A stretch of DNA of 64,000 nucleotides from NCBI RefSeq assembly GCF_013366925.1, contig NZ_JAALDK010000002.1, positions 1,240,001 to 1,304,000 on the forward strand, read 5' to 3'. This document shows, one piece after another, positions 9,004 to 27,348 of the stretch. The notes under the pieces are model-generated. The model saw only the letters and a program-made list of their open reading frames with translations, was not told where the DNA came from and ran no database searches. Both the position numbers and the translations under genes were made by a program. This DNA is from Paraburkholderia youngii. GTDB lineage: Bacteria; Pseudomonadota; Gammaproteobacteria; Burkholderiales; Burkholderiaceae. The first letter of the stretch is position 1, and every line of letters starts with the position of its first letter.

Positions 9004-9029
9004 TGTCCGAAACTCTGACGTTGCGGACA
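9004..9029. promoter_or_regulatory. TGTCCG-N14-CGGACA palindrome, copy 1
   Basis: Left half TGTCCG at 9004-9009, 14-base spacer, right half CGGACA at 9024-9029. Same geometry as the copies at 10516, 12888 and 27323. It lies between a small minus-strand gene (start 8862) and a plus-strand lipoprotein gene (start 9137), so it could serve either. No TATACT box is present at the 23-24 bp distance seen in the sRNA promoters. Confidence 0.7.
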
Positions 9030-9136
9030 GCCATGCTGGGGCGCGCGGCCCCGCCTTCGCGCGAATTCGAAGAAACCCGTTCGCGACCGATTTGGCGTAG
9101 CGTAGTCAATGTGAATGGCGGTTGAAGGAGGGCGCA

Positions 9137-9400
9137 ATGCCTGACGTCCGACGAGGCTGCCCTCGCGCCATCGATGCGCGGGAGCGCGAAAATTCCGCGA
9201 GGTGCGATCCGAACCGCGACGCGGCGCGCGCTGCGAAAAACCGTCGCACGGCGGCGCTGCGCACAGCGCTCGTCATGACATTCGCGATCGCCGCGACGGC
9301 CGCGTGCGCGACGCCGCCCGAAGCCGGCACGGCGCAGCCTTCGGGTCAACCGACCTGCAACGTGGCCGGCAAGTTCTGCAACACGTTTTTCGGACCTTGA
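9137..9400 (+). CDS. Small putative lipoprotein
   Basis: 87-residue protein with an unusually long charged N-terminus (MPDVRRG...AAKNRRTAALR), a hydrophobic stretch ALVMTFAIAATAAC that ends in a lipobox-like AATAAC, then a short mature part with two further Cys (CNVAGKFCNTFFGP). AAGGAGGGCGCA precedes ATG 9137. An internal ATG near 9275 would give a tighter signal peptide, so the true start may be later. The 26-bp palindrome lies about 110 bases upstream. Function unknown; membrane attachment is inferred from the lipobox. Confidence 0.6.
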   Translation: MPDVRRGCPRAIDARERENSARCDPNRDAARAAKNRRTAALRTALVMTFAIAATAACATPPEAGTAQPSGQPTCNVAGKFCNTFFGP

Positions 9401-9427
9401 CGATACCCGCGGCAGCGACTTGAGCGA

Positions 9428-10312
9428 TCACCCGAGCTCGTTGCTGCGCGGGACTTCGCTGCCTATTTCGGCGCCGGTCGTCGGATCGCTCGAGGGGTCG
9501 GATCGCAGACGCGTGGCCATCGCGGTAACCGCGGCTTGCTGTTGCGCTTCGAGGCTCACCGACGCATTGCCGTCGCCGCCATCCACCGCCGGCTCACCAG
9601 TCCGTATCGTGAGACCGGTGCCGCTGTTCCACGGTGTGTTGATCACCGCTCCGTCGTGCGACATCTTGTAGTAGACGCTCGCGAATTCCTGTCTCGGCGG
9701 CAGCTTGCCCGGCGGGAAACTGGGCGTGATCGCATACAGCGCCTTCTCGAACGACTTCTGATGCGCGACTTCGCGGGTCATCAGAAAGCCGAGCGCCTCG
9801 CGCACGCCGGCATCGTCGGTGACGTTGATCAGCCGTTCATAGATGATCTTCGCGCGCGCTTCGGCGGCGATGTTGGAGCGCAGGTCCGCAGTCGGCTCAC
9901 CGATCGTGTCGATGTACGCGGCACTCCACGGTACGCCGCCGGAGTTCGTCAGCGGCGGTCCGCCGCCGTATAGCACCTGCGTAAGGTGGCTGTCGTTGCC
10001 CGCGCCGTTGAGCTTGCGATACAGATCGGCTTGCTGCTCGACCGCTTCGGCGAGTTCCCCTTTCGCGCCGCGATTCAACATCGCGACGATCGAGCCGATG
10101 ATCTCGAGATGGCTCAGCTCTTCGGTGGCGATGTCGAACAGCATGTCCTTGCGCCCGGGGTCTTCTTCCGCAACGGCCTGCGTGAAGTAGCGCATCGCGG
10201 CGGCCAGTTCGCCTTGCGGACCGCCGAACTGCTCCAGCATCAGATTCGCAAGCCCGGGATTGGTCGTGCCGACGCGAACCGTGTATTGCAGCCTTTTGTT
10301 GTGCATGAACAT
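9428..10312 (-). CDS. Manganese catalase
   Basis: 294-residue dimanganese (pseudo)catalase, a non-haem enzyme that converts hydrogen peroxide to water and oxygen. The ferritin-like four-helix core carries the metal-ligand motifs in order: GELAAAMRYFTQAV, DIATEELSHLEIIGSIVAML, RSNIAAEARAKIIYERLI and GFLMTREVAHQKSFEKAL. The start at 10312 follows GGAGGTCACG; upstream in-frame sequence is not used. The C-terminal 60 residues are low in conservation and hydrophilic. It diverges from hmp, and a conserved 26-bp palindrome lies between them, pointing to a shared stress regulator. Confidence 0.92.
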   Translation of the reverse strand: MFMHNKRLQYTVRVGTTNPGLANLMLEQFGGPQGELAAAMRYFTQAVAEEDPGRKDMLFDIATEELSHLEIIGSIVAMLNRGAKGELAEAVEQQADLYRKLNGAGNDSHLTQVLYGGGPPLTNSGGVPWSAAYIDTIGEPTADLRSNIAAEARAKIIYERLINVTDDAGVREALGFLMTREVAHQKSFEKALYAITPSFPPGKLPPRQEFASVYYKMSHDGAVINTPWNSGTGLTIRTGEPAVDGGDGNASVSLEAQQQAAVTAMATRLRSDPSSDPTTGAEIGSEVPRSNELG

Positions 10313-10515
10313 CGTGACCTCCATTGGAGTTGGTACTTGGGTCTTCGATCCGCCGTGCCACGCGTGCGGAGCGCCGTTCGTCGCGAGCGGCGCGTGGATC
10401 GCCTCGCATGCCGTGTTCCTGGCCGGCTCTCGCATCGCGTCGTTGGCCGGCCCGCGATGGCGTGCGCAGTGGCCGATGGCGTCTACCCCATGCCGCGCGC
10501 TGATCGTCATCGGCA

Positions 10516-10541
10516 TGTCCGTGGCCTTTGGCATATGGACA
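10516..10541. promoter_or_regulatory. TGTCCG-N14-TGGACA palindrome, copy 2, between Mn-catalase and hmp
   Basis: Left half TGTCCG 10516-10521, spacer 14, right half TGGACA 10536-10541. The site is 204 bases upstream of the catalase start and 158 bases upstream of hmp, in a 386-base divergent intergenic region that otherwise holds no gene. Weak -10-like sequences occur on both sides. Same spacing as the three other copies. Confidence 0.7.
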
Positions 10542-10584
10542 GCCGGCATCGGTTGGAGCAGCATGGTCGCCCGGATAGGCTTGA

Positions 10585-11913
<1,329 letters not shown>

Positions 11914-11991
11914 CGCATACGGCGCGTTCCGCGCAACAGTTGCCGCGGAAGCGTCAAGCAGGAATGCAGTTCCCAAGACGGGGAGTGCGGC

Positions 11992-12858
11992 ATGAGAGTG
12001 CACCATCTGAACTGCATTTCGACCTGCCCGTTGTGCGGCATGCTGTTCAACGGGCAACCCGAATCGTTGATTCGCCGCGGGCATCTGGTCTGCCATTGTC
12101 TGCTCGTCGAAAGTTCGGCGGGGCTCGTGCTCGTCGATACCGGTTTCGGTCTGCGCGATGTCGCCGATCCCTATTCGCGCCTCGGCAAATTCTTTCTGAG
12201 GCTGCTGAAGCCCGAGTTCCGGAATGAAATGACGGCGATCAGGCAGATCGAGCGGCTTGGTTTCGACCCGGCCGAGGTGCGCCATATCGTCATGACGCAC
12301 CTCGATTCCGATCACGCGGGCGGCCTCGATGACTTTCCGCACGCGACCGTGCACATGCTCGCGAGCGAGCGTCAGTACGCGGCACAGCAGAAGACCTGGC
12401 TCGACCGGCAGCGCTTCAGGCCGCAGCAGTGGTCGTATCAGAACATGTGGCGCGTGCATTCGCCGCAATACACCGAGCGCTGGGAAGGCTTCGCGAAGGT
12501 GCATCCGATCGAGGAACTCGCGAGTGAGATCGCACTAGTGCCGCTACGAGGCCATACCTATGGTCAAGCGGGCGTCGCGGTGAACGGCGACGGCGGCTGG
12601 TTGCTGCTCGCAGGCGACGCCTATTTCGACAACGGCGAGCTCGACCCGGTGCGTCCGCATTGCGCGCCCGGGTTGCGCTTCTATCAGTGGATGCTCGAAA
12701 AGGACCGCGCGGCACGACTGTACAACCAGCGCCGACTGCGCGATCTGGCGAAGCGGGCGAGTCCCGCGCTGAGGATTTTTTGCAGCCACGAGGTCGACGA
12801 ATTCGAGCGGCTCGCGGGCCGTTCAGTGGCGGTGCCGGCGGAGCAGATGGCAGGATGA
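11992..12858 (+). CDS. Metallo-beta-lactamase-fold hydrolase
   Basis: 288-residue MBL-fold enzyme. The metal motif reads MTHLDSDHAGGLDDF near residue 103; further likely ligands are in PLRGHTYGQAG and LLLAGDAYFD, with a late FCSHEVDEF. The CxxC-like start HHLNCISTCPLCGMLF is typical of a Burkholderia/Pseudomonas subgroup near the AHL lactonases, though lactonases usually have HxHxDH while here it is HLDSDH. GGGGAGTGCGGC precedes ATG 11992. It follows hmp by 78 bases on the same strand and may be co-transcribed. The substrate is unknown; a lactonase or thioester-type hydrolase is possible. Confidence 0.8.
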   Translation: MRVHHLNCISTCPLCGMLFNGQPESLIRRGHLVCHCLLVESSAGLVLVDTGFGLRDVADPYSRLGKFFLRLLKPEFRNEMTAIRQIERLGFDPAEVRHIVMTHLDSDHAGGLDDFPHATVHMLASERQYAAQQKTWLDRQRFRPQQWSYQNMWRVHSPQYTERWEGFAKVHPIEELASEIALVPLRGHTYGQAGVAVNGDGGWLLLAGDAYFDNGELDPVRPHCAPGLRFYQWMLEKDRAARLYNQRRLRDLAKRASPALRIFCSHEVDEFERLAGRSVAVPAEQMAG

Positions 12859-12887
12859 TGGTGCGCGACGCGTTTCGCGTGGAGAAC

Positions 12888-12913
12888 TGTCCGCGATGCA
12901 GGGCTTACGGACA
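12888..12913 (+). promoter_or_regulatory. TGTCCG-N14-CGGACA palindrome, copy 3, upstream of sRNA 1
   Basis: Left half TGTCCG 12888-12893, spacer 14, right half CGGACA 12908-12913. The palindrome ends 23 bp before a TATACT -10 box (12937-12942), so it is centred near -48 of the inferred start. No good -35 hexamer is visible, which fits an activator-dependent promoter. The arrangement is repeated at 27323. Confidence 0.75.
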
Positions 12914-12936
12914 GACTGCGGTGCGGACCGGTTTCC

Positions 12937-12942
12937 TATACT
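12937..12942 (+). promoter_or_regulatory. -10 box (TATACT) of sRNA 1
   Basis: TATACT six bases before the first hairpin of the small RNA. The same hexamer at the same distance occurs before sRNA 2. Transcription is inferred to begin near 12949. Confidence 0.65.
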
Positions 12943-12948
12943 CGATTT

Positions 12949-13030
12949 GTCCTCCGCTTGGACTCGTGGGGACAGCGTTCTCAAATGCGCTTGTGGCGAC
13001 CATGCCGGTCAAAGGCTGGTCGCTTTTTTT
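12949..13030 (+). ncRNA. Small RNA 1: two hairpins plus rho-independent terminator
   Basis: About 82 nt. Hairpin 1 pairs GTCCTC (12949-12954) with GGGGAC (12968-12973). Hairpin 2 pairs AGCG (12974-12977) with CGCT (12988-12991), its loop containing TTCTC. Terminator hairpin is 12996-13023 followed by seven T. The same order of elements and near-identical joining sequence (GGGGACAGCGTT) occur at 27384-27465, so these are paralogues. The architecture recalls the betaproteobacterial toxic small RNA family described in Burkholderia; that assignment is from memory and should be tested with the Rfam model. There is no open reading frame of note inside. Confidence 0.75.
12996..13030 (+). terminator. 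Rho-independent terminator of sRNA 1
   Basis: GCGACCA (12996-13002) pairs with TGGTCGC (13017-13023), followed directly by TTTTTTT (13024-13030). It ends 13 bases before the stop codon of the convergent minus-strand gene. Confidence 0.85.
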
Positions 13031-13043
13031 GCGCGCGCAGTCT

Positions 13044-13559
13044 TCATCGATCCGGCCGCCGCAGCAGCGCGGCCGCGAGCAGGCCGGCGCCGAGCACCAG
13101 GTAGACGTTGCCGAGCGAGCGACGCGACAGGTGCGCCTCGAATCCCGGCGTGAGCCGGTTGGGCACCACCTTGTAGTCGACCACGTACGCGCTTGCCACC
13201 GTCGCGGCGGCGGCTAGCGCGGCGGCGCCGGGCCGTCGTGACGGGACAGGGCCGGCCATCCGGTCAACGAGTTGCTCGAACAGGAATGCCCAGAAGATGG
13301 CGGCCGCCTGATGGATCGCGAAGCCGGTCACCGTATGGCGGATGCTGAAGCCGCGTTCGCGCAACGCGCGTTGCGGCCACATGGAGTGGGTGACCGCATT
13401 GATCGGCGCGAGCGGGCTGCCCGATGCGTCCGCGGATGCCGCCGAGGCCGTCGCCGCCGACAGGCACCCGGACAACAGCCCCGATGGGACGGCCCGGCGT
13501 AGCGTCGCACAGACGGCCTGATACCACGGCGAACCGATTTTGTACTCGCGCATTTTCAT
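13044..13559 (-). CDS. Hypothetical membrane protein
   Basis: 171-residue protein with hydrophobic segments near residues 22-45 (SGLLSGCLSAATASAAS), 82-100 (GFAIHQAAAIFWAFLFEQLV), 112-128 (AAALAAAATVASAYVVDY) and 152-165 (NVYLVLGAGLLAAALL). The C-terminus is basic (RRPDR). MKMREYKIGSPWYQ is the start chosen at 13559, with a GGAG nine bases upstream. The pattern VTHSMWPQRALRERGFSIRHTVTGFAIHQ is shared by uncharacterised Burkholderia inner-membrane proteins. No catalytic motif is seen. It converges on sRNA 1. Confidence 0.7.
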   Translation of the reverse strand: MKMREYKIGSPWYQAVCATLRRAVPSGLLSGCLSAATASAASADASGSPLAPINAVTHSMWPQRALRERGFSIRHTVTGFAIHQAAAIFWAFLFEQLVDRMAGPVPSRRPGAAALAAAATVASAYVVDYKVVPNRLTPGFEAHLSRRSLGNVYLVLGAGLLAAALLRRPDR

Positions 13560-13711
13560 GGCAGCGCTCCAGTGCGGGGGCGCAAACGCACGCCCGATGA
13601 TCGCGGACAGAGGTATGCGCAAGGAGCAGCATGTCGCGTTCCGCACGGACGGGACAGCGCATCGGCCGGGGCCGACTGCGCCGATTCCCTCGCCAGGTCA
13701 GAGTCAGTGCC

Positions 13712-15439
13712 TTAGCTGCAAGTGAAACTACTCGCCGAGTTCACGTCTCCACTCGTGTAGCGGGCCACCTTCGGGTAGGCGCACAGCGGACGCGTGCGCC
13801 CGGCACCCCAGCTAGTCGGCACTTCGCTATTCGGAATCGCGTTGCTGGTGTCGCGAGCCGTTGCGATGACCTGGTTCGGTGCTTGCCCCTGCTCGACCCA
13901 TGCCACCATGGGCGTCAGCATGTCGAACTGATCGGCCGTCGGACCGCCGCTGCAGTGGTTCATCCCCGCTACCGTGAAGAGCCGAGCGAAATTGCTTGCG
14001 TCTCCGCCACTAGCCGTCGATAGGCGTTGATACCAGTCGGTCGTATCGTTCGACGAGAACACCGGATCGCTCGTTCCGTGATAGACGATCAACTTCGCGC
14101 CCCGGCTCCGCAGACCGCTCAGATCGGTCTCGTTCGGCGGGGTCATGAATGACCACGAAGACTCGGAATAGATCCCGCTCGTGGCGAAGATCTTCGGCGC
14201 ATCATTGTCCATGCTGAAGTTCAGACCGTAGGCACCCATCGAACCGAGGATCGAAGCGCTTTGCGGCGGCGACGTAAACACGAAGGCTGCCGCGGCCGGA
14301 TCAAGGCTGATGGAATTGCCTTGCTTCCACGCGGCCCAGCCTGATCCGTTGATACCGACATCATAAGGAAAGCTCGCATAGAGCGCCGTGCCGGCGCTGT
14401 TTTTCGCCCCGGAGAAAATATTTCCAACCGCCTGCTTTTGAGCCGCCGTAAGACAGCTGCCGTCGCGCCCATTGCTCGAACACGTCGGTACGTCGGTGGC
14501 CAGATTGAAGTTCGCCTGGCACGCTTTGATGTCCTGGACCATTCCGTCCGCCACACCATCGAGCGAATCACACTTCGCGATGATCTTCGATGCGATCAGC
14601 TGCCTTTCAGTAGTCGTCAAGCCGGTGGTGATATCGGCAATGCCGGACGAGGTCGTCGCGGTCGCGACGGTGGCGAGCTGTTGCGCGCTCCACAACTCCC
14701 CGATCGCTGCCTTGGGCAAATGAAAGCCGGGGTCACCGGCAATGATGCCGTCGTAATCCGCGAACGATCTGGCTGCCGCCACCATCGCATGACGGCCGCC
14801 GTTCGAGCAGCCTTCGAAGTAGCTGCGGTCGGGGCCCTTGCCATAGGCCAACCTGATCACCTGCTTGGCCATCGGCGTGAGCGTAGCGACGGCGTTATAG
14901 CCATAGTCGAGACGCGCCTGGGGATCGAGACCGAACAACGGGTTTTGCGACCCGGAATGACCTGCATCCGAACTGATCACGGCGAAGCCCATGTTCAGCG
15001 CGTTGTTCAGCGGGCCCCCGCCACTGAGCACTCCCGTCGCCGGCGTCACATTGCCGTCGAGACCACCGTTGGCCTGATAGAAAAAGCGGCCATTCCACGC
15101 AATTGGCAGCCGCATTTCAAAACCGATCGCATAAGTCCGGCCGTCAACGGCGCTCGTGCGTTGATTCATTTTTCCTTCGATCACGCAATGTTCGGGGACG
15201 GACTTTCCCGCCACCGTGAGCGTTCCGGCCGGCACGTCGGTGACTGAGGTAAAGGTCGTGTTGGCAAACGTCAACCTGGCGGCGAGCGCGGCGCAGTCTC
15301 CCGACAGCGTCGCGGGTTGTGCGGCGGAGAGCCGAGGCAATTGCGTCGCACTGGTGGAGAGGGAGTCGGAACCGCCGCCGCAGGCCGCCAGCATCGCGGA
15401 CACGGCCGATACGCATACAGCAATTGAAGTTCGTTTCAT
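13712..15439 (-). CDS. Tannase / feruloyl esterase family lipoprotein
   Basis: 575-residue secreted serine esterase. The N-terminus has a lipoprotein signal (MKRTSIAVCVSAVSAMLAAC then GGGSDS), so it is probably anchored at the outer membrane. The alpha/beta-hydrolase core has the family nucleophile motif FEGCSNGGRHA with Ser212, a YHGTSDPVF acid region and a C-terminal VAGMNHCSGG histidine loop. The Cys next to Ser and the one next to His form the disulfide typical of tannases and mono(hydroxyethyl) terephthalate-like hydrolases. It lies 12 bases downstream of a porin gene and is probably co-transcribed, suggesting uptake and hydrolysis of an aromatic ester. The exact substrate is unknown. 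Confidence 0.9.
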   Translation of the reverse strand: MKRTSIAVCVSAVSAMLAACGGGSDSLSTSATQLPRLSAAQPATLSGDCAALAARLTFANTTFTSVTDVPAGTLTVAGKSVPEHCVIEGKMNQRTSAVDGRTYAIGFEMRLPIAWNGRFFYQANGGLDGNVTPATGVLSGGGPLNNALNMGFAVISSDAGHSGSQNPLFGLDPQARLDYGYNAVATLTPMAKQVIRLAYGKGPDRSYFEGCSNGGRHAMVAAARSFADYDGIIAGDPGFHLPKAAIGELWSAQQLATVATATTSSGIADITTGLTTTERQLIASKIIAKCDSLDGVADGMVQDIKACQANFNLATDVPTCSSNGRDGSCLTAAQKQAVGNIFSGAKNSAGTALYASFPYDVGINGSGWAAWKQGNSISLDPAAAAFVFTSPPQSASILGSMGAYGLNFSMDNDAPKIFATSGIYSESSWSFMTPPNETDLSGLRSRGAKLIVYHGTSDPVFSSNDTTDWYQRLSTASGGDASNFARLFTVAGMNHCSGGPTADQFDMLTPMVAWVEQGQAPNQVIATARDTSNAIPNSEVPTSWGAGRTRPLCAYPKVARYTSGDVNSASSFTCS

Positions 15440-15451
15440 TTTCGACCCGTA

Positions 15452-16594
15452 TCAGAACATGTGTTTGATGCCGACCATCACGCCCGTTTGACCCATGCCC
15501 GCGCCTGGCGTGGTCCCGCCACCGCCGCCGCTCACCGAATAGCGCGCCTTCGCACTGTTCGCCAGATACGCTGCCTGCGCATAGACCGACGAACGCTTGC
15601 TCAGCAGATAGGTGGTGCGTAACGTTCCCATCGTGGCGCGGGTATCGTGGTCGCTATTGATGATGCGAAACACTTCGCCATCGAGGAGGAATGCAGGCGT
15701 GACCATGTACGAAGCGCCGAGGAAGAACAGGTCCGAACGGATATTGGGCACGCTTGGCGACTGGGTCACTACGCGGCGTCCAATCCAACCGGCGCCGATC
15801 TTCGCGCCTGCGTACTGCGCATAGGCGCTCAGTTGCGTACGGGCGTCCTTGTCCGCGGCGTTGATCAGAGGTGTCGGCGCAACACCGTCGAAGAAGTTGG
15901 CGGCTGCCGTCGCGCCGCCGCGTTGCTCCTCGTACGACGCGGCAGCGCCGAAATATTGCGAGTCGTACTTGAGCATTGCGGACCAGTCGCGACATTCCGT
16001 GGCGTGGCCTGGAACGGAGCCGGTACAGGTTCCTTGTCCCGGCGAGTTGCCGGTACCCGCAGCGTCCCGTCCGAATGAATAACCCACGCCCAACGTAAAG
16101 CCTTTGTACGAGCCGAGATAGGTGATCGAGTTGTCGGTGCGCGCGTTGGGCACATAGGCATCCAGCGAGCCCATGCCGTAGATGTCCGGACCGATGATGT
16201 CGGCGCCCTGGACCGCGAGATAGGTCATCGTGTACTGACGGCCGAACGCGAGCGTTCCATACGGGCTCTTCACGCCGATGAACGCCTGGCGTCCAAACAG
16301 CCTGCCGCCCTGTCCGGAACTGCCATCGCGCAGGTTGAAGCCGCTTTCGAGAGTGAACACAGCGCTGTAGCCGCCGCCTAGATCTTCGTTGCCACGCAGC
16401 CCCCAGCGCGATGGGAACTCACCGGTAACGGATGGCATGCGAACGACGCTGTCGCCGTTCGCGTTCGCGTGTGAGACATACTCGATCCCTGTGTCAACGA
16501 TGCCGTACAACGTGACGCTCGATTGCGCCGAGGCTCCTGCGCTCAGCGCGCAGAGCGCACCGAACATGAGGACGTGAGTCGACTTCAATTGCAT
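15452..16594 (-). CDS. Gram-negative porin, Burkholderia OmpC-like family
   Basis: 380-residue outer-membrane trimeric porin. It has a signal peptide (MQLKSTHVLMFGALCALSAGASAQ), mature start SSVTLYGIVDTGIEYVSHAN, the ESGFNLRDG and LFGRQAFIGVKSPYGTLAFGRQYT segments of the 16-strand family, and ends GVMVGIKHMF with the terminal Phe needed for Bam-dependent assembly. It is the first gene of a two-gene unit with the tannase-like esterase and likely admits its substrate or products. Two matching palindromes lie 115-215 bases upstream. Confidence 0.93.
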   Translation of the reverse strand: MQLKSTHVLMFGALCALSAGASAQSSVTLYGIVDTGIEYVSHANANGDSVVRMPSVTGEFPSRWGLRGNEDLGGGYSAVFTLESGFNLRDGSSGQGGRLFGRQAFIGVKSPYGTLAFGRQYTMTYLAVQGADIIGPDIYGMGSLDAYVPNARTDNSITYLGSYKGFTLGVGYSFGRDAAGTGNSPGQGTCTGSVPGHATECRDWSAMLKYDSQYFGAAASYEEQRGGATAAANFFDGVAPTPLINAADKDARTQLSAYAQYAGAKIGAGWIGRRVVTQSPSVPNIRSDLFFLGASYMVTPAFLLDGEVFRIINSDHDTRATMGTLRTTYLLSKRSSVYAQAAYLANSAKARYSVSGGGGGTTPGAGMGQTGVMVGIKHMF

Positions 16595-16707
16595 GGTGAT
16601 ATCTCCGGACCTGTTGTTTGCTTTTTTTGTTGAGCTGCGGTTGTGGATCTTGGGTACGACCTGGTCTTTCGCTCGGAGCCGGCGCAGCGGCCTGAGTGCG
16701 ACAATTA

Positions 16708-16728
16708 AATATCAGGTAGGCTGATATT
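16708..16728. promoter_or_regulatory. Operator-like palindrome 1 upstream of the porin
   Basis: Perfect inverted repeat AATATCAG (16708-16715) and CTGATATT (16721-16728) around GTAGG. The core TATCAG-N5-CTGATA is repeated 84 bp away at 16794-16810. The AT-rich surroundings of both sites fit a promoter region. This type of short TATCAG-like palindrome is often bound by GntR/FadR-family repressors, but no regulator gene is adjacent. Confidence 0.65.
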
Positions 16729-16793
16729 ATGGTTAAAAATTAAGCGCGTCCTGAAAACGCGCCCGTCCGTCCGTCGTGATGTTCTGTATTTGA

Positions 16794-16810
16794 TATCAGG
16801 TACCCTGACA
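16794..16810. promoter_or_regulatory. Operator-like palindrome 2 upstream of the porin
   Basis: TATCAG (16794-16799), spacer GTACC, CTGACA (16805-16810): one mismatch from the first site. The centres are 84 bp apart, eight helical turns, which would place both on the same DNA face and allow looping. Confidence 0.6.
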
Positions 16811-17948: not shown

Positions 17949-19397
<1,449 letters not shown>

Positions 19398-19411
19398 CAG
19401 GGACCACGGTC

Positions 19412-20194
19412 ATGCTAGAAATCAGCAAACTGAGCGTTGAAGTAGAAGGCAAGCCGATTCTGCGCGGGGTCGATCTGTGTGTGAACGCGGGCGAGGTGCA
19501 CGCCATCATGGGCCCGAACGGTTCGGGCAAGAGCACGCTTGCCAACGTGCTGGCGGGCCACCAGCATTACCGCGTAACAGGTGGCAGCGTGCAGTATGCG
19601 GGCCGTGACCTGCTCTCGCTCGCGCCGGAAGAGCGTGCACGCGAAGGGCTTTTTCTCGCGTTTCAATACCCTGTCGAAATACCGGGTGTCAGCAACGTGT
19701 ATCTGCTGAAGGCCGCGTTGAATGCACAGCGCACGCACCGCGGCGAACCCGAACTGGATGCAATGGAATTCCTGCAACTGGTGAAGGAGAAAATGGCGCT
19801 CATGCAGATGGACGAAAGTCTGCTGCATCGCGCGGTCAACGAAGGGTTTTCAGGGGGTGAGAAAAAGCGCAACGAGGTGCTGCAGATGGCGGTGCTGGAG
19901 CCGCGCCTCGCGATTCTCGACGAAACCGATTCGGGGCTCGATATCGATGCGTTGCAAGTGGTTGCGCGAGGCGTCAATCAGATGCGCCATGCGGACCGCG
20001 CAATCGTTCTGGTGACGCATTACCAGCGCTTGCTCGAATACGTCGTGCCCGATTGCGTGCATGTGCTTTCAAAGGGGCGTATCGCGAAATCCGGAACGCG
20101 CGAGCTGGCACTTGAACTGGAGCGCAAGGGTTATGGATGGCTCGATGCGGATGCGCCGAACGGGCCGGATTCTGGGCCGCCTAACCCGTACTGA
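19412..20194 (+). CDS. sufC: Fe-S cluster assembly ATPase SufC
   Basis: 260-residue ABC-type ATPase that powers the SufBC2D scaffold. Walker A GPNGSGKSTLANVLAG near residue 32, Q-loop FQYPVEIPGV, the SufC-specific signature FSGGEKKRNEVLQ, Walker B LAILDETDSGLDID and switch His in VTHYQRLL are all present. It starts 14 bases after sufB. The C-terminal 15 residues (NGPDSGPPNPY) are longer than in most SufC proteins and probably unstructured. Confidence 0.97.
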   Translation: MLEISKLSVEVEGKPILRGVDLCVNAGEVHAIMGPNGSGKSTLANVLAGHQHYRVTGGSVQYAGRDLLSLAPEERAREGLFLAFQYPVEIPGVSNVYLLKAALNAQRTHRGEPELDAMEFLQLVKEKMALMQMDESLLHRAVNEGFSGGEKKRNEVLQMAVLEPRLAILDETDSGLDIDALQVVARGVNQMRHADRAIVLVTHYQRLLEYVVPDCVHVLSKGRIAKSGTRELALELERKGYGWLDADAPNGPDSGPPNPY

Positions 20195-20236
20195 CACGAG
20201 GCGGTCATACGCGATATCGCGAGGAGTAGACGTCAA

Positions 20237-21562
20237 ATGAGTGAACCGACGCTCGAGTACCTCCATCAGTCTTTCCAGACCCTGTCGAGTACGCTGCCCG
20301 GCGCGGAACTTCCGTGGTTGCGCAGCGCGAGGCGCCAGGCGTTCGAAAAATTCGAAGGGCTTGGCTTTCCCACAACTCGGCTCGAAGACTGGAAGTACAC
20401 GAATGTGGCGACCATCGCGAAGCGGTCATGGCATTTCACGTCGCGGCGCAGCGACGACCTGGATGTGGAGCGCATCGTCGACGATCTCGTGCCCTACGGG
20501 ACAGCGGGTCGGCTCGTGTTCGTCAACGGCCGCCATATGCCGAAGCTGTCGCGCATGCCGCCGTTGCCGGACGGCGCATTTGTCGGCAGTCTCACGCGTG
20601 CCATTCGTGAGATACCGGAGCGGCTGAAAGCCGTCATTGCGCATCAGGCAGCGCCCGATGGCTTCGCGGCCCTGAACACGGCGTTCCTGAGCGACGGTTA
20701 CGTGGTCCTGCTGCCGCCGGACTGTGCGATCGATGCGCCGCTCGTCATGCTGTTCCTGACCGACGAAGCCGGCCTCGCGATACATCCGTTCAACACGGTA
20801 CTGGCGGACGGGCGCTCGCGGTGCTCGATCGTCGAGCAGTTTGCCGGTTTTTCCGACGACGCGTATCTGGTCAATTCCGTCACGAGGATCGTGGCGGGCG
20901 ACGAGGCCGACGTGCAGCATTGCCGCGTCCACCATGAAGCACGCAGCGCGTTCCATATTGCGCATGTCGACGTCTCGCAACGGCGGGCGAGCCGCTTCAC
21001 GTCGCACTCGTTCGCATTCGGTGGGGCACTCTCGCGTACGCAGATCGACACACGGCTGCAGGCCGCCGATGCCCGCGCCGAACTGAACGGGCTGTATATC
21101 GCGAGCGCGAGGCAGCATGTCGATCATCACACGCGCATCGATCACGAGAAACCGCACGGAACGAGCCGCGAGCACTACCGCGGGGTGCTCGACGGTGCGT
21201 CACATGGCGTATTCAACGGCAACGTGGTCGTGCATCGTCACGCGCAGCAGACCGACACGCATCAGTCAAACTTCAATCTTCTGTTGTCGCGCGATGCGCA
21301 GATCGACACGAAGCCGCAACTGGAGATCCATGCCGACGACGTCAAGTGCACGCATGGCGCAACCGTTGGCCAGCTTGACGAGAACCAGCTGTTCTATCTG
21401 CGCTCACGCGGCATCGACGAACGCGTGGCGCGGGCTTTGCTCATCTGGGCGTTTGCGCGCAGCAGTCTGGAGCACGTGCGTATCGAGGCGGTGCGCGACC
21501 GACTGACGCAAATGCTGCTCGCGCGCACGCCGGAAGGTGAGCGCATTCGGGGACTGGTATGA
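20237..21562 (+). CDS. sufD: Fe-S cluster assembly protein SufD
   Basis: 441-residue SufD, paralogue of SufB and partner in the SufBC2D scaffold. The beta-helical core shows HHTRIDHEKPHGTSREHYRGVLDG and VHRHAQQTDTHQSNFNLLLS, and the family C-terminus CTHGATVGQLDENQLFYLRSRGI, which carries the conserved Cys-Thr-His-Gly with the functional His. The N-terminus has the expected helical LPWLRSARRQAFEKFEGLGFPTTRLEDWKYT. Start ATG 20237 lies 42 bases after sufC. The stop overlaps the sufS start by four bases (ATGA), indicating coupled translation. Confidence 0.95.
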   Translation: MSEPTLEYLHQSFQTLSSTLPGAELPWLRSARRQAFEKFEGLGFPTTRLEDWKYTNVATIAKRSWHFTSRRSDDLDVERIVDDLVPYGTAGRLVFVNGRHMPKLSRMPPLPDGAFVGSLTRAIREIPERLKAVIAHQAAPDGFAALNTAFLSDGYVVLLPPDCAIDAPLVMLFLTDEAGLAIHPFNTVLADGRSRCSIVEQFAGFSDDAYLVNSVTRIVAGDEADVQHCRVHHEARSAFHIAHVDVSQRRASRFTSHSFAFGGALSRTQIDTRLQAADARAELNGLYIASARQHVDHHTRIDHEKPHGTSREHYRGVLDGASHGVFNGNVVVHRHAQQTDTHQSNFNLLLSRDAQIDTKPQLEIHADDVKCTHGATVGQLDENQLFYLRSRGIDERVARALLIWAFARSSLEHVRIEAVRDRLTQMLLARTPEGERIRGLV

Positions 21563-22812
21563 AACCGATCGAACCTGTGATGATCCCGGACGACGAGACG
21601 GTGGCGCGTTGGCGAAGCGACTTCCCGATCTTTCGCGAGCTCATACACGGCAATCCACTGGTGTATCTCGACAACGGCGCGACTACCCAGAAACCTTCGG
21701 CCGTGATCGACGCGCAGCGCGACTACTACGAGCATGCAAATGCGAACGTGCATCGCGGCGTGCACGAGTTGTCGCAGCGCGCCACGGACGCGTACGAAGG
21801 TGCGCGCGAACGGATTGCGCGCTTCATCAATGCGGCGCGCGCGGAGGAAATCGTCTACGTGCGCGGCACGACGGAAGCGATCAACCTGGTTGCGCAGAGC
21901 TATGTGCGTCCTCTCGCGAAGCCCGGCGACGAGATCCTGATCAGCGCGATGGAACATCACTCGAACATCGTGCCGTGGCAACTCGTATGCGGGCAGACGG
22001 GCGCGGTGTTGAAGGTCGTGCCGATCGATGACAGCGGCGCGCTCGATGTCGATGCCTACCGGCAGATGATCGCCGAGCGTACGCGCATCGTGGCGATCAC
22101 GCATGTATCGAACGCGCTCGGTACGATCAACCCGGTCGCGCGGATGATCGAGGCCGCGCACGCGCGCGACGTGCCTGTCCTGATCGACGGCGCGCAGGCG
22201 GTTGCGCACCTGCCTGTCGACGTGCGCGCGCTCGATTGCGATTTCTATGCGTTCTCCGGGCACAAGGTGTATGGACCGACGGGAATCGGCGTGCTGTACG
22301 CCAAGGCGGACAGACTGGAAGCGATGCCGCCGTGGCAGGGCGGTGGCGACATGATCCGCTCGGTGACGTTCGACAAGACCATTTATAACGCCATTCCCTG
22401 GAAGTTCGAGGCGGGCACACCGGACATTAGCGGGGCGATCGCGCTCGCGGTGGCGCTCGACTATGTGAATGCAATCGGCAGCGAAACGATCGGCGCACAT
22501 GAGGCCGGGCTGCTCGCGTATGCGACCGATGCAATGCGTGCGATGCCACATCTGCGGCTGATCGGTACTGCAACCGAAAAGGCGGCCATTCTATCGTTCG
22601 TGCTCGACCACGTGCATGCACACGACGTCGGTACGATTCTCGATCAGTACGGCGTCGCGGTGCGCGCCGGCCATCATTGCGCGATGCCCGTCATGCAGCG
22701 CTTCGGCGTGCCGGCAACCGTGCGTGCGTCATTCGCGCTGTACAACACGCGGGCCGACGTGGAGGCACTCGTCAAGGCAATGGCGCACGTGCAGGAGGTA
22801 TTTGGGCAATGA
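21559..22812 (+). CDS. sufS: Cysteine desulfurase SufS
   Basis: 417-residue PLP enzyme of the SufS/CsdA group that takes sulfur from L-cysteine for cluster assembly. Near the N-terminus are YLDNGATTQKP and NVHRGVHELSQRAT. The PLP lysine is Lys236 in AFSGHKVYGPTGIGVLY. The active-site Cys is Cys374 in VRAGHHCAMPVMQRF. The ATG overlaps the sufD stop, and the TGA overlaps the sufU start. Group II architecture together with an adjacent SufU suggests SufU, not SufE, is the sulfur acceptor. Confidence 0.96.
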   Translation: MKPIEPVMIPDDETVARWRSDFPIFRELIHGNPLVYLDNGATTQKPSAVIDAQRDYYEHANANVHRGVHELSQRATDAYEGARERIARFINAARAEEIVYVRGTTEAINLVAQSYVRPLAKPGDEILISAMEHHSNIVPWQLVCGQTGAVLKVVPIDDSGALDVDAYRQMIAERTRIVAITHVSNALGTINPVARMIEAAHARDVPVLIDGAQAVAHLPVDVRALDCDFYAFSGHKVYGPTGIGVLYAKADRLEAMPPWQGGGDMIRSVTFDKTIYNAIPWKFEAGTPDISGAIALAVALDYVNAIGSETIGAHEAGLLAYATDAMRAMPHLRLIGTATEKAAILSFVLDHVHAHDVGTILDQYGVAVRAGHHCAMPVMQRFGVPATVRASFALYNTRADVEALVKAMAHVQEVFGQ

Positions 22813-23258
22813 GCAGTCTGCGCGACCTGTACCAGGAAGTGATTTTCGACCACTACCGGAGACCGAGAAACCGTCACCGGCTGCCGGATGCCAATCGCAA
22901 GGCGGAGGGCTATAACCCGTTGTGCGGAGATCGCATCACGCTGTATCTGCGCATCGAGGATGGCGTCGTGGCGGACGTTGGGTTCGAGGGTGTAGGTTGT
23001 GCAATCGCCATTGCATCGGCATCGCTGATGACCGAAGCGCTCAAGGGGCGCACGGAATCGGAAATGGAGGCGCTCTTCGGGGCGTTTCACGACATGATGA
23101 TGACGGCGCCGCCGGCGGACGCGTCTTCGCACCTCGGCAAGCTCGCGGTGTTCTCGGGTGTACGGGAATTTCCGGCGCGCGTGAAGTGCGCGACGCTCGC
23201 ATGGCATACGCTCCATGCAGCATTGCATGACGAGTGCGGCACCATCTCGACGGAATGA
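22809..23258 (+). CDS. sufU: SUF sulfur-transfer/scaffold protein SufU (NifU-like)
   Basis: 149-residue IscU-like protein of the SufU type. The three conserved Cys are in NPLCGDRI (Cys39), VGCAIAIASASLM (Cys64) and VKCATLAWHTL (Cys127), with the Asp41 of CGD. An insertion between the second and third Cys distinguishes SufU from IscU. SufU accepts sulfur from SufS through a zinc-ligand-swap mechanism. ATG 22809 overlaps the sufS stop. No sufE or sufA is present in this operon. Confidence 0.93.
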   Translation: MSSLRDLYQEVIFDHYRRPRNRHRLPDANRKAEGYNPLCGDRITLYLRIEDGVVADVGFEGVGCAIAIASASLMTEALKGRTESEMEALFGAFHDMMMTAPPADASSHLGKLAVFSGVREFPARVKCATLAWHTLHAALHDECGTISTE

Positions 23259-23275
23259 TTAGTGGAGGAAGTGAG

Positions 23276-23641
23276 GTGAACAGGAAGAGCGCATTCGACT
23301 GGCTGAAACGGGCAGATGGGCCGGAGCCCGGCGACGGCGACCTGCGCTCGCGTGTGATCGACGCGTTGCGTACGGTGTTCGACCCGGAGATTCCCGTGAA
23401 CATCTACGATCTGGGGCTGGTGTACGGCTTGGACGTCGACGGCGATACGGGCAACGTGTCCATTCGCATGACGCTAACGGCGCCGGGCTGCCCGGTCTCG
23501 CAGACCTTTCCCGCGACGATCGAAGATGTCGTCTATTCGGTGGCAGGCGTCAATACGGTACGCGTCGAGCTGGTGTGGGAACCGCCGTGGACGAAAGAGC
23601 GGATGTCCGAAGCCGCCCGTCTGCAATTGGGAATGCTTTGA
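23276..23641 (+). CDS. sufT: SUF-associated DUF59 protein SufT
   Basis: 121-residue protein dominated by a DUF59/MIP18 domain: IDALRTVFDPEIPVNIYDLGLVY, then MTLTAPGCPVSQTFPATIEDVV with the conserved Cys, and VWEPPWTKERMSEAARLQLGM. SufT proteins assist Fe-S maturation or delivery. The GTG at 23276 has a strong GGAGGA seven bases upstream and is chosen. An in-frame ATG at 23255 overlapping the sufU stop is the alternative and would add seven residues. Confidence 0.88.
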   Translation: MNRKSAFDWLKRADGPEPGDGDLRSRVIDALRTVFDPEIPVNIYDLGLVYGLDVDGDTGNVSIRMTLTAPGCPVSQTFPATIEDVVYSVAGVNTVRVELVWEPPWTKERMSEAARLQLGML

Positions 23642-23642
23642 C

Positions 23643-23975
23643 ATGACAAACTGGGTCGAAGTCGCGGCGATGACGGATTTCCCGCCGGGTTCGGTACGCA
23701 GCGTCGACGTGGACGGCACACAGGTGGCGGTGTTCAATCTTGATGGCGTCTGCTACGCGATCGAAGATACCTGTCCGCACGACGGCGGCATCCTGACTGG
23801 CGGTGCCGTCGAGGATGATGAAGTGGTATGTCCTCGTCATGGCGCCCGTTTTTGTATCAGGACCGGCAAGGTGCTGGCTCCGCCGGCCTACGAAGACGTG
23901 GCGGTGTTTCCGGTGCGCATCGAGGCTGGTGTGCTGCAGGTGCGCGACGCGCGCGACGACGACAGCGCTTCATGA
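23643..23975 (+). CDS. Rieske [2Fe-2S] ferredoxin, end of the suf operon
   Basis: 110-residue Rieske-type ferredoxin of the non-haem dioxygenase ferredoxin class. The cluster ligands are in DTCPHDGGIL (Cys-Pro-His) and VVCPRHGARFCIRTG (Cys-Pro-Arg-His). ATG 23643 is one base after the sufT stop, so it belongs to the operon. Such ferredoxins frequently end bacterial suf operons and may supply electrons during assembly; that role is inferred from context. Confidence 0.9.
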   Translation: MTNWVEVAAMTDFPPGSVRSVDVDGTQVAVFNLDGVCYAIEDTCPHDGGILTGGAVEDDEVVCPRHGARFCIRTGKVLAPPAYEDVAVFPVRIEAGVLQVRDARDDDSAS

Positions 23976-24002
23976 AAGAGACCTTCACCATAGGGAGACT
24001 CT

Positions 24003-24245
24003 ATGAAAACCGATCAAGTTACCAAGTACCGCGGTTTGCTGATCCGATCAGTCGTTACTCCCGCGGACAGCGATCGCTATAGGGCGGCAGCCATTGTGAC
24101 CGACCAGACAGGCGAAGCGCGGACGCTGGGCGTCGACGGCGATTTCGCGGAGCCGAACGACGCTCATGTCCAGGCGACGGAACTCGCGATCGCCTGGATC
24201 GATGGGCGCCACGTCGTATCCGATCACTACGTACGCCGGGGATAG
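24003..24245 (+). CDS. Hypothetical 80-residue protein behind the suf operon
   Basis: Small soluble protein MKTDQVTKYRGLLIRSVVTPADSDRYRAAAIVTDQTGEARTLG...VQATELAIAWIDGRHV. It resembles the short uncharacterised alpha/beta proteins repeated in Burkholderia stress islands (a beta-strand half and one helix ending in WIDG). GGGAGACTCT precedes ATG 24003, 27 bases after the Rieske gene, so it may be the last gene of the suf transcript. Function unknown. Confidence 0.65.
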   Translation: MKTDQVTKYRGLLIRSVVTPADSDRYRAAAIVTDQTGEARTLGVDGDFAEPNDAHVQATELAIAWIDGRHVVSDHYVRRG

Positions 24246-24309
24246 ATCACGCGACGCGGACACCCCCGTCGAATGGCTGGCTGTTGAGTTCACGGCGCGT
24301 ATTGCTGCT

Positions 24310-24735
24310 TTAGCGCTCCGGTTCGCAAGGCGTGGAAATCGCCCCCAGCGTTGAAGAAATTTCGTCATCGGAGCGCGTGGCAAGGTCCCCGAGGGAAAGG
24401 ATTCCGATCAGGTGGTCGCTTTGATCCACGACGGGAATCCGGCGGACTTGCGCGTCCGCCATCCTGTCCTTGACGGCCTGGACGTCGTCGTCTTCGTAGC
24501 AGCAGCTCGGTTCACCACTGACGATTCCTTCTATCGTTTCCTCGGTCGACGCTCCTAGCGCTACCGCGCGCGTCACGATATCCCGGTCAGTCAGCATGCC
24601 CACGACCTCCCCGTCCTCGCAAACGGGTAGCACGCCGACGTTCAGTTCAGTCATCAATTGTGCAGCTTCTCGTATGGTCAGGCGGAGTCCGATGGACGCT
24701 GGATTGCGTGTCATCACTTCCGCAACAGTTGTCAT
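24310..24735 (-). CDS. CBS-domain protein
   Basis: 141-residue protein with two CBS motifs forming one Bateman module: [26 protein letters not shown]...[29 protein letters not shown] and [39 protein letters not shown]. These modules bind adenine nucleotides and report energy state; stand-alone versions are common in anaerobic or stress regulons. AAGGAGAAGATC precedes ATG 24735. It diverges from the molybdopterin oxidoreductase gene. The extra CC pair in [10 protein letters not shown] is unusual. Confidence 0.9.
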
Positions 24736-24901
24736 GATCTTCTCCTTCCAGTGGGCCGATGCTGGCTAGCGACAGCTTGTCGAACCGGTCTTTCATCCGT
24801 AATCAGCGGCGCAGCAATCACCGTACCGCCCGGCGCCGCAGGCGGGAACGTGACGTGCTGACCCATCATGACGTGACATTTTTGACCAGACGGGTGGAGT
24901 C

Positions 24902-27193
24902 ATGAGCAATGAAGCCAAAAGCGCTGCATATCCCTACGCATCGGGTGGATGGGGTTCCGTCAAGGCGGTCGCGACGATCCTGCTTCGGGAAAAAGCACCG
25001 CTGAAGGATAGCCAGGTTCTGATGCATCAAAACAAGCCCGACGGTTTTATGTGTGTCAGCTGCTCGTGGGCGAAGCCGGCCGATCCGCATACGTTCGAGT
25101 TCTGCGAAAGCGGCGCGAAAGCCACTGCGTGGGATCTGACGGCCAAACGCGTAACGCCGGATTTCTTCGAGGTCCACACTGTCTGCGAGCTTGCGAAGTG
25201 GCACGATCACGATCTCGAGGAAGCGGGGCGGCTCACCGAGCCGCTGCGCTACGACCCGGCTACCGACCGCTACGTGCCGGTGTCGTGGCAGCAGGCATTC
25301 GATGCGATCGGCGCCGAGCTGCGCACGCTCGACCCGGCCAGCGTGGTGTTCTACACGTCGGGCCGCGCATCGCTGGAAACCTCGTACATGCTGCAGCTTT
25401 TCGCGCGCATGTACGGCACCAACAATCTGCCCGACAGCTCGAACATGTGCCATGAGAGCACCAGCGTCGGGCTCAAGGAAGCGATTGGCGTTGGCGTCGG
25501 CACGGTCTCGCTCGACGACTTCGAGAAGACCGACCTGATGTTCTTCTTCGGCCAGAACGTCGGTACGAATAGCCCGCGCATGCTGCATCAGTTGCAGGAC
25601 GCGCGCAAACGCGGCGTGCCGATCATCACGTTCAATCCTTTGCGCGAACCGGGGCTGCTGCATTTCGCAAATCCGCAGTCACCGGTCGACATGCTCACAC
25701 CCACCGATACGCAGATCAGCACGCAATACCATCAGGTGAAGACGGGTGGCGATACCGCCGCGATCCTCGGCATCTGCAAACTCGTGATCGAAGCGGACGA
25801 TCGCGCGGTCAGTACGGGCGGCGCGCGGGTCGTCGATGTCGATTTCATCCGCGAGCATACGAACGGCTACGAGCAGTTCGCGCAGTACGCGCGCGCGGCG
25901 AGCTGGGACGACATCGAACGCGTGAGCGGCTTGCCGCGCACCGCGCTCGAAGCGGCCGCCGACGAATACATGAAGGCGAACGCGGTGATGATCCACTATG
26001 GCATGGGTGTCACGCAGCATCGGATGGGCGTGCAAAACGTGCGCATGCTGTGCAATCTGCTGCTGCTGCGCGGCAATGTCGGCAAGCCGGGCGCGGGGCC
26101 GTCGCCGGTGCGCGGTCATTCGAACGTGCAGGGTCAGCGCACGGTCGGCATCACCGAAAAGCCGGAACTCGCGCCGCTCGATCAATTGGCCAGGCAGTTT
26201 TCGTTCGAGCCGCCGCGCGAGAAAGGCATGAACATCGTCGAAGCCTTCGAGGCGATGCTCGATGGCAAGGTCAACGCGATGATCAACCTCGGCGGCAACC
26301 TCGTGCGCTCGGTGCCCGACCGGGTGCGCACCGAACCGGCCTGGGCCGCGCTCGGGCTGACCGTCAATGTGGCGACCAAGCTCAATCGCAGCCACCTGGT
26401 GCACGGCCAGCGCTCGTATCTGCTGCCGTGCCTGAGCCGCATCGAGATCGACCGGCAGGCGAGCGGCGCGCAAGCGGTGTCGATGGAAGACAGCACGGCG
26501 CACTTTCATGGTTCGCATGGCATGGCCGAACCGGCCGCGCCGACGATCCGCTCGGAGCCGTTCATCGTCGCGGGCATCGCGAAGGCGACCCTCGGCGAGC
26601 GCTCGAGCGTCGACTGGGATGCGTGGCGCGACGACTATTCGCGGGTACGGCTGGAAATGGCGAAGACGTGGCCCGAGATGTTCGGTGATTTCGAGTCACG
26701 CATGTGGACACCCGGCGGCGTGATACGGCCGCTGCCCGCGCGCGAGCGCAAGTGGAAGACCAAAAGCGGCAAGGCCGAGTTCATGGTGCCGACTTCGATC
26801 GGCGAAGATCCGGACATGCCCGAGCGTGAGCCCGATTCGCTGCGCTTGATGACTCTGCGCAGCGACAGCCAGTTCAACACGACCATTTATGGCCTCGACG
26901 ACCGCTTCAGAGGCATCAAGGGTTCGCGCATGGTGATCCTGATGAATCCCGCCGACATGGAGAAGCGCGGGCTCGCGCACGGTGACCGCATCGGCCTCGA
27001 GACGATAGCGGACGACGGTGTCGAGCGCCGCGTCGACGGGCTGAGCGTCGTGCCGTTCGATGTGCCGCAGGGATGCATCGGTGGCTATTACCCGGAATGC
27101 AATCCGCTGCTGCCGCTGTGGCACTACGCGAAAGAGAGCAAGGTGCCGGGGGCGAAATCGATTCCAGTGCGCGTGCTGGCGGCCACGCGGTGA
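24902..27193 (+). CDS. FdhF/YdeP-type molybdopterin oxidoreductase
   Basis: 763-residue cytoplasmic oxidoreductase of the YdeP branch of the formate dehydrogenase alpha-subunit superfamily. N-terminal Cys motif FMCVSCSWAKPADPHTFEFCESG could hold an Fe-S cluster. The cofactor-binding blocks VVFYTSGRASLE, FFFGQNVGTNSPRML, MGVTQHRMGVQNVRML and SPVRGHSNVQGQRTVG are present, then the C-terminal YGLDDRFRGIKGSRMVILMNPADM and CIGGYYPECNPLLPLWHYA. GTGGAG precedes ATG 24902. YdeP in E. coli is linked to acid resistance; the true electron donor and substrate remain unknown. It is divergent from the CBS gene. Confidence 0.88.
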   Translation: MSNEAKSAAYPYASGGWGSVKAVATILLREKAPLKDSQVLMHQNKPDGFMCVSCSWAKPADPHTFEFCESGAKATAWDLTAKRVTPDFFEVHTVCELAKWHDHDLEEAGRLTEPLRYDPATDRYVPVSWQQAFDAIGAELRTLDPASVVFYTSGRASLETSYMLQLFARMYGTNNLPDSSNMCHESTSVGLKEAIGVGVGTVSLDDFEKTDLMFFFGQNVGTNSPRMLHQLQDARKRGVPIITFNPLREPGLLHFANPQSPVDMLTPTDTQISTQYHQVKTGGDTAAILGICKLVIEADDRAVSTGGARVVDVDFIREHTNGYEQFAQYARAASWDDIERVSGLPRTALEAAADEYMKANAVMIHYGMGVTQHRMGVQNVRMLCNLLLLRGNVGKPGAGPSPVRGHSNVQGQRTVGITEKPELAPLDQLARQFSFEPPREKGMNIVEAFEAMLDGKVNAMINLGGNLVRSVPDRVRTEPAWAALGLTVNVATKLNRSHLVHGQRSYLLPCLSRIEIDRQASGAQAVSMEDSTAHFHGSHGMAEPAAPTIRSEPFIVAGIAKATLGERSSVDWDAWRDDYSRVRLEMAKTWPEMFGDFESRMWTPGGVIRPLPARERKWKTKSGKAEFMVPTSIGEDPDMPEREPDSLRLMTLRSDSQFNTTIYGLDDRFRGIKGSRMVILMNPADMEKRGLAHGDRIGLETIADDGVERRVDGLSVVPFDVPQGCIGGYYPECNPLLPLWHYAKESKVPGAKSIPVRVLAATR

Positions 27194-27211
27194 GCGGCGC
27201 TGACACAAAAA

Positions 27212-27237
27212 GGCCGGCATCGTTACCTGTGCCGGCC
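27212..27237. terminator. Hairpin downstream of the oxidoreductase gene
   Basis: GGCCGGCA (27212-27219) pairs with TGCCGGCC (27230-27237), about 20 bases after the stop codon. No T-run follows on the plus strand; on the minus strand TTTTT follows the stem. It may act as a weak or rho-assisted 3' end. Confidence 0.5.
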
Positions 27238-27322
27238 GCTGAATTACACCCGGGCAGCGCGTGAAGGGCATGATAAGCGCGTGCCCACCTTCATGATAGT
27301 CGCGCCAGTCCCGGACTGCAGG

Positions 27323-27348
27323 TGTCCGTTACTCGACACTTAAGGACA
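27323..27348 (+). promoter_or_regulatory. TGTCCG-N14-AGGACA palindrome, copy 4, upstream of sRNA 2
   Basis: Left half TGTCCG 27323-27328, spacer 14, right half AGGACA 27343-27348. It ends 24 bp before a TATACT -10 box (27373-27378), matching the layout at 12888 within one base. Flanking bases CTTA before the right half are also shared with copy 3. Confidence 0.75.

Follow-up and report, generated by a model that had tools for sequence, protein, structure and literature searches.

TldR proteins, which are RNA-guided transcription factors, descend from transposon-encoded TnpB nucleases. They resemble the system described here in that a DNA enzyme of a mobile element appears to have become a transcription factor (PMC13418256), and differ from it in enzyme class and in that the protein considered here would recognize a palindrome by itself, with no RNA guide. 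Co-opted mobile-element regulators such as Ner/SfsB are also domesticated DNA-binding proteins that regulate host genes, but, unlike a resolvase, they were regulators before co-option (PMC8987985). In the available part of that 2022 review of domesticated mobile-element proteins, serine recombinases are named only as invertases and resolvases.

Closest in structure is the Tn3/gamma-delta resolvase on res site III (5cy1; PMC9943657), which is alike in the fold of our model, in its HTH_7 domain and in a TGTCYG-type half-site. The site III oligonucleotides read TGTCTGATA-N7-TAAGGTACA in the text available, where the marks of a few bases altered for crystallisation are lost; counted on the printed oligonucleotide, the inverted subsite spans 25 bp, versus 26 bp here (PMC9943657). 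Unlike that resolvase, the protein described below has lost Asp67 and Arg68 in all 51 aligned members, its presumed sites stand singly at host promoters, and no transposon is known to carry its gene. A serine resolvase acting on transcription through res subsites, as may be the case here, has a precedent in TnpR of Tn3, the repressor of tnpA and tnpR at its own res; TnpR is catalytically active and represses its own transposon, whereas the present protein is dead, would serve a dispersed host regulon and is apparently an activator (PMC7157771). A literature search covering titles and the starts of abstracts, with preprints and most subscription journals outside its reach, listed no paper in which a catalytically dead serine resolvase serves its host as a transcription factor.

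Here we describe four palindromic sites which, on the sequence analysis presented, very probably belong to one regulon under the control of a serine resolvase that has been domesticated and is catalytically dead, and that we infer to bind them and, most likely, to act as an activator. The motif, its conservation, the phasing of promoters against it, the loss of catalytic residues and the link between motif and protein were all computed here.

The Operator

Four sites of the form TGTCCG-N14-NGGACA had been reported at 9004-9029, 10516-10541, 12888-12913 and 27323-27348 of the window (the 64-kb stretch of DNA analysed), and all four lie exactly there. Searching the window with TGTCCG-N15-GGACA returned 6 strand matches at 4 places, against a mean of 0.06 in 100 shuffles, none of which reached 6. 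In the whole genome (G000, 9.49 Mb) the exact pattern occurs at 7 places, four of them inside 18.3 kb of the window; the others are C1:5022509, C2:1317918 (TGTCCGTAACACATCAGTTACGGACA, with the outer 10+10 bases palindromic) and C4:208464, a weak site scoring 8.9 with the matrix described below.

The original prediction had proposed searching the whole genome for the 6-14-6 pattern with up to one mismatch. At one mismatch this bare pattern showed no excess over the reversed control (forward 49 vs 66, reverse 43 vs 45), so that the geometry alone is not specific, and the pattern was dropped as too loose. The predicted 6-14-6 halves are present, yet they form only part of the operator, which in full is a 26-bp palindrome, TGTCCGNAA-N8-TTNCGGACA, with conserved inner A/T bases. 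It is the inner TAA...TTA that makes the motif more specific: TGTCCGNAN10TNCGGACA, allowing no mismatch, occurs in 6 of 58 genomes of the genus and its reversed control in 0 of 58, and the symmetrised half-site over 62 places is TGTCCG(T/A)AA. A position-specific scoring matrix (PSSM) trained on 14 sites, the four window sites among them, gave 1 match of score at least 10 over 640 kb of sequence shuffled from the window and, inside the window, picked out the four sites only. They score 31.9 (9004), 22.2 (10516), 27.3 (12888) and 27.8 (27323), the lowest belonging to the site at 10516, where most of the inner bases are missing. We know of no named operator with the sequence TGTCCG-N14-NGGACA, and the motif seems unlike the consensus sequences of FNR, OxyR, NsrR and NorR operators.

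Promoters and Genes at the Four Sites

Operator 1 (9004..9029, minus strand) is followed 35 nt leftwards by the −10 element TATGCT (8965..8970, minus strand) of the promoter of a 65-aa gene (MLSPHEFAVFMLVKASP...; 8665..8862, minus strand), its predicted target; site and −10 element are both kept in G064 and G030. Pfam gave no match for the 65-aa gene, which resembles small genes downstream of motif sites in another genus (g12); similar frames lie 0.1-0.8 kb downstream of sites at L096, L101, L179, L187, L194 and L196, not always as the first gene. To the right of operator 1 stands a small lipoprotein-like gene (9137..9400, plus strand) with no phased −10 element towards it, which is probably not a target. 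The proposal that this site marks a lipoprotein/small gene pair is thus retained for the small gene and not for the lipoprotein.

Operator 2 (10516..10541, plus strand), the weakest, has a −10-like TAGGCT (10576..10581, plus strand) 35 nt downstream, in the direction of a gene for an hmp-type flavohaemoglobin (10699..11913, plus strand; Pfam globin, FAD and NAD domains). The divergent Mn-catalase gene (9428..10312, minus strand) has no phased −10 element towards it; the site lies 204 bp upstream of its likely start codon, which was placed by eye like that of hmp. The site falls within an over-long reading frame that a simple gene caller scored as coding. Of the two genes once assigned to it, hmp is favoured and Mn-catalase is not, and the assignment is the least certain of the four. 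In G064 the site occurs without the −10 element; in G030 both are kept.

The sites at 12888 and 27323 do stand at two small-RNA promoters, as anticipated. Operator 3 (12888..12913, plus strand) has TATACT 24 nt downstream (12937..12942, plus strand), ahead of small RNA 1 (12949..13031, plus strand; 5' hairpin and terminator, fold z −3.2), and operator 4 (27323..27348, plus strand) has TATACT 25 nt downstream (27373..27378, plus strand), ahead of small RNA 2 (27385..27466, plus strand; fold z −4.7), which has motifs in common with small RNA 1; both starts are presumptive. The two look like paralogues, with similar hairpins and terminators and the motifs GGGGACAGCGTT..CTC and CGCTT, and UCCUCC in small RNA 1 is an anti-Shine-Dalgarno-like stretch. 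Rfam found no family in the 64-kb window at gathering scores, and a small-RNA query matched 3 of 58 genomes of the genus, G000 included.

Homologues of small RNA 1 occur in G064, G141 and G102, with partial ones in G030 and G107, and homologues of small RNA 2 in G064, G141 and G107. The 12888 site is kept in G064 and is one base shorter in G102; it is gone in G141 despite the persisting −10 element and small RNA, and gone in G030 together with half of the small RNA. What is left in G030 (L038:17283-17327) is a terminator-side remnant, the promoter, operator and 5' half having disappeared. The 27323 site is kept in G064 and G107 and is weaker in G141, where TATACT has become GATACT. Conservation at orthologous promoters therefore holds for 9004 and for 27323, partly for 12888, and is ambiguous for 10516. 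To the left of the site at C1:5022509 (L001:1501), CTATACTGCGTCGTCC starts about 24 nt away and resembles the beginning of small RNA 2, which makes this place a candidate for a further, third small RNA in the regulon.

A Resolvase-Like Protein That Has Lost Catalytic Residues

Among the genes of the window and its 20-kb flanks, inspected by eye, no conventional candidate regulator stood out. At 13 kb beyond the right end of the window, G000 encodes a resolvase-like protein (G000:C2:1317207-1317788), and the best sites of G000 and G030 lie 0.04-0.13 kb past this gene. Beside it in G000, a search for the 26-bp motif showed one site and no complete res array of several subsites; single copies likewise stand in the window, and some species have two copies, for example at L090. 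A 40-aa Gln-rich frame (L006:569-691; G000:C2, about 1317.0 kb), kept in G030, ends about 0.1 kb before the start of the gene.

The protein matches Pfam Resolvase (PF00239, 5e-9) over its N-terminal fold and HTH_7 (PF02796, 8e-9) over a C-terminal helix-turn-helix, and G000 holds no further match to it at E<=1e-10. Among solved sequences it is matched best by 4m6f (1.4e-8), annotated as a DNA-invertase, whose active-site WKLDRLGR reads LELAALGC here. The best of five AlphaFold models has a pLDDT of 81 and a pTM of 0.56 (mean pLDDT of the five: 81, 76, 57, 52 and 51). With this model, the top Foldseek hit was Tn3 resolvase on site III (5cy1, TM 0.52); 1gdt was also found, and FixJ/VpsT-like regulators were far lower.

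Relatives were aligned and sorted into dead and active by their own catalytic motifs, so that the residue counts that follow are partly true by definition; residues carry gamma-delta numbers. None of the 51 dead rows keeps Asp67 or Arg68, which all 26 active rows have. Among rows with a letter at the position, Arg8 is kept in 0 of 41 dead and 24 of 24 active, and the Ser10 column holds Ser in 2 of 41 dead and all 25 active rows. Arg45 is kept throughout (51/51 dead, 26/26 active), and the Arg, Gln and Thr (RQT) of the recognition helix are present in all 51 dead rows. Independently of this sorting, in a tree the dead rows all fall on one side of a branch with 100/100 support (L168 being counted as dead on its sequence). 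Judged by its sequence, the protein is probably not a functional serine recombinase, catalytic residues having been lost. Databases name the family "recombinase family protein" or "DNA-invertase", with a few members called "helix-turn-helix domain-containing protein".

Promoter Phasing and a Model for Activation

The position of −10 elements relative to the sites was surveyed at 62 places (124 flanks), which are chosen loci of genomes with the dead protein and hence no census. TANNNT starts are concentrated at offsets of 24 (11), 25 (8), 35 (23) and 36 (7) from the site, against a background mean of 1.6 over 60 offsets and a next highest count of 6, at offset 13. These amount to 49 phased boxes, whereas 2000 shuffles gave 4.4 on average and 14 at most. 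A phased −10 element is present at 47 of the 62 places, on both sides in only 1, and 15 have none. When similar promoters were grouped into 37 clusters, 29 had a phased member, and 27 of the 37 cluster representatives were phased (shuffled mean 2.8, maximum 8 of 500).

The four offsets were chosen on the 62-place set and then tested anew in other genera, where 14 of 19 places were phased; over 38 flanks, 14 boxes fell at the four offsets and 21 at the other 56, offsets 37 and 14 holding 5 and 4 boxes. Because several of these 19 loci are near-copies, a Poisson value for this set is too strong. The set excludes ten loci that lack a site of score 10 (L158, L160, L161-L166, L175 and L176), and L204 and L206 have dead-type relatives below the E 1e-30 cut.

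Two classes of promoter can be distinguished. In the 35/36 class (30 boxes) the site centre falls at about −60, and T occurs at 67 and 73% at the −35 place, 17 bp ahead of the −10 element, forming a weak −35 element. In the 24/25 class (19 boxes) the centre falls at about −49, one helical turn nearer, and there is no −35 element at the corresponding place. C precedes TA in 26 of the 49 boxes and is the fifth base in 32 of the 49, features that may resemble those of sigma-S promoters.

These observations suggest a model in which the dead protein would be a domesticated relative of Tn3-type resolvases that retains the fold and the C-terminal helix-turn-helix. Its putative dimer would bind a single 26-bp subsite of the kind used by active resolvases within res. 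In one layout, predicted for the 65-aa gene and probably hmp, the protein would be centred near −60 ahead of a weak −35 element (TT) 17 bp before the −10 element; in the other, predicted for both small RNAs, it would be centred near −49, with its inner half-site taking the place of the −35 element. Both layouts would present the protein on the same helix face, from where it may help RNA polymerase to start at the −10 element. Since both are activator layouts, the dead resolvase most likely activates, a view suggested by position only. Direct binding, the dimer, activation over repression and the signal are in this model what we infer from the pattern.

The same protein might instead bind as a repressor or as a DNA-looping or architectural protein, which we consider unlikely though worth weighing. 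TnpR represses from res (PMC7157771), resolvase dimers bend and pair DNA (PMC2428073), and the clustering of four sites inside 18.3 kb would suit looping. Against these readings, the site lies upstream of the −10 element without overlapping it; its distance takes two values that differ by one turn, and no −35 element is present in the nearer class.

Co-occurrence with the Motif and Active Relatives

In the genus, the protein (E<=1e-30) was found in 30 of 144 genomes and the motif (at most 1 mismatch) also in 30 of 144. The motif is present in 19 of the 30 genomes with the protein and 11 of the 114 without it (Fisher 4.5e-9, confounded by relatedness), and a control pattern in 4 of 30 and 8 of 114, respectively (p 0.22). 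Counted as sites, the 30 protein genomes hold 43 and the other 114 hold 13, versus 12 control sites in all 144. In three of the 11 motif genomes without the protein (G010, G106 and G133) the site adjoins an active resolvase. Across the rest of the family, the motif occurs in 12 of 34 genomes with the protein and 30 of 304 without (p 2e-4, again confounded by relatedness), and the control pattern in 16 of 338. The protein searches scored at most 22 candidates per genome in the genus and at most 8 in the rest of the family, so carriers may be missed.

Seven genomes have the site no more than 0.2 kb from the dead gene (G000, G030, G064, G095, G102, G107 and G140), and in G016, G040, G046 and G054 the distance is 2.2 kb. 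A further 27 dead-gene loci divide into 16 with a site of score at least 10 nearby and 11 with none; five of the 16 sites have, exactly or nearly, the form TGTACGTAA-N8-TTACGTAC. Eleven of the 30 dead-protein genomes of the genus are without a site at up to 1 mismatch; among these, G021, G028, G073, G095 and G120 have weaker adjacent sites, and the site in G141 is upstream of small RNA 2 and not by the gene. Dead relatives in genus g3 (L171-L174 and L177) have a variant operator, TGTACGTAA...TTACGTAC, and some show −10-like boxes on both sides.

Active resolvases provide a comparison. Among those that a protein search turned up, an upstream site of score at least 10 accompanies 5 of the 6 whose recognition helix reads TSRQT or TTRQT (the sixth, L061, scores 7.4), versus 0 of 11 with other helices (maximum score 4.2; difference p 0.001). 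The L060 score was taken as 22.6, about 0.1 kb before the likely start, rather than the 0.7 given by a too-early frame start, and with 20 shuffles per locus, 4 of the 49 loci had a shuffled upstream region that reached a score of at least 10. L112 and L043 came via the motif and are thus outside the 5 of 6; L043, an active resolvase with a different helix (SRQALLR), also has the motif.

Outside the genus, 30 genomes have the motif without the protein, and 22 loci were obtained from them. At 15, a distance of 52-93 bp separates the site from an active resolvase gene, and in every case a second subsite, a 33-bp TGTCC...ACA pair, lies in between. The TSRQT helix is found in 14 of these 15 resolvases (the L198 frame is cut short); of the remaining seven loci, two have dead-type relatives below the cut and five have neither. 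At the loci of 8 dead-protein genomes no site was found beside an active resolvase. Sites by active resolvases have 8 boxes at the four offsets versus 3 expected (p 0.01), with the main cluster at 48-54. The active resolvases of genus g12 (L178, L180-L186, L188, L189, L191-L193, L197 and L198) combine the 26-bp site, the 33-bp subsite and −10-like boxes at offsets 48-54.

These data bear on who binds the sites. Another, co-occurring transcription factor could do so, for example the response regulator of a neighbouring histidine-kinase cluster, as the dead gene adjoins a kinase of 1359-1361 aa in the three species looked at, G326 (L208:15118-19203), G016 and G020 (L210:5608-9687 and L211:11345-15424). 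We consider this distinctly improbable, since the same motif stands upstream of active resolvases with the same recognition helix in genomes that lack the dead gene, the motif resembles the Tn3 site III oligonucleotide as printed (PMC9943657), and FixJ/VpsT-like regulators are far down the Foldseek list. Nor are the sites at all likely to be res recombination sites, or remnants of them left by transposons: the motif is indeed a subsite beside active resolvases in other genomes, but in the window it occurs as single 26-bp copies with phased promoters, and the only related protein in G000 (E<=1e-10) has lost its catalytic residues. Chance similarity, which could appeal to the bare one-mismatch pattern being no commoner than its reverse, has next to no probability against the 0.06 matches in shuffles, the co-occurrence in the genus and the −10 phasing in the genus and in other genera. 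The original prediction of one regulator behind these promoters is well supported by the motif, the phasing and the motif-protein link, and that regulator is best identified with the dead resolvase.

Possible Signal and Implications

The signal for the dead resolvase is perhaps low oxygen or nitrosative/oxidative stress. The large protein beside the gene in G326 has Pfam CheB, CheR, PAS, histidine kinase and receiver domains; in G016 a GAF kinase and, by eye, SUF genes come next, and in G020 a molybdopterin oxidoreductase like that at 24902-27193 of the window is nearby, with, by eye, hmp. The window itself contains SUF, hmp, Mn-catalase, haemerythrin and cytochrome bd genes. Given these stress and respiration genes in the window and among the neighbours of the dead gene, a redox or low-oxygen signal is plausible. 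A connection with lxa in cenocepacia, suggested in part by a phasin (Pfam) and an Hsp20-like neighbour (by eye), is a guess. The accessible portions of three lxa papers (PMC9060813, PMC9104464 and PMC6127331) link no resolvase, recombinase or invertase to lxa, and that of PMC3759415 links no resolvase or recombinase to it, its one recombinase mention being a shufflon-specific recombinase in a table.

Taken more broadly, we lean towards the view that these proteins are a Burkholderiaceae transcription-factor family which arose once from an active serine resolvase, lost catalysis, kept the specificity for the res subsite and became an activator coupled to a sensor kinase of the CheB/CheR type, running an oxygen/redox-stress regulon with paired small RNAs. 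As far as the literature searched reaches, a transcription factor exapted from this source has not been described. Serine recombinases are known for rearranging DNA; if the interpretation is true, this clade directly documents how a recombinase turns into a transcription factor, its active cousins with the same sites in sister genomes provide a natural control, and proteins now labelled recombinases need re-annotation. The regulon would then also offer an entry to a stress response with two small RNAs.
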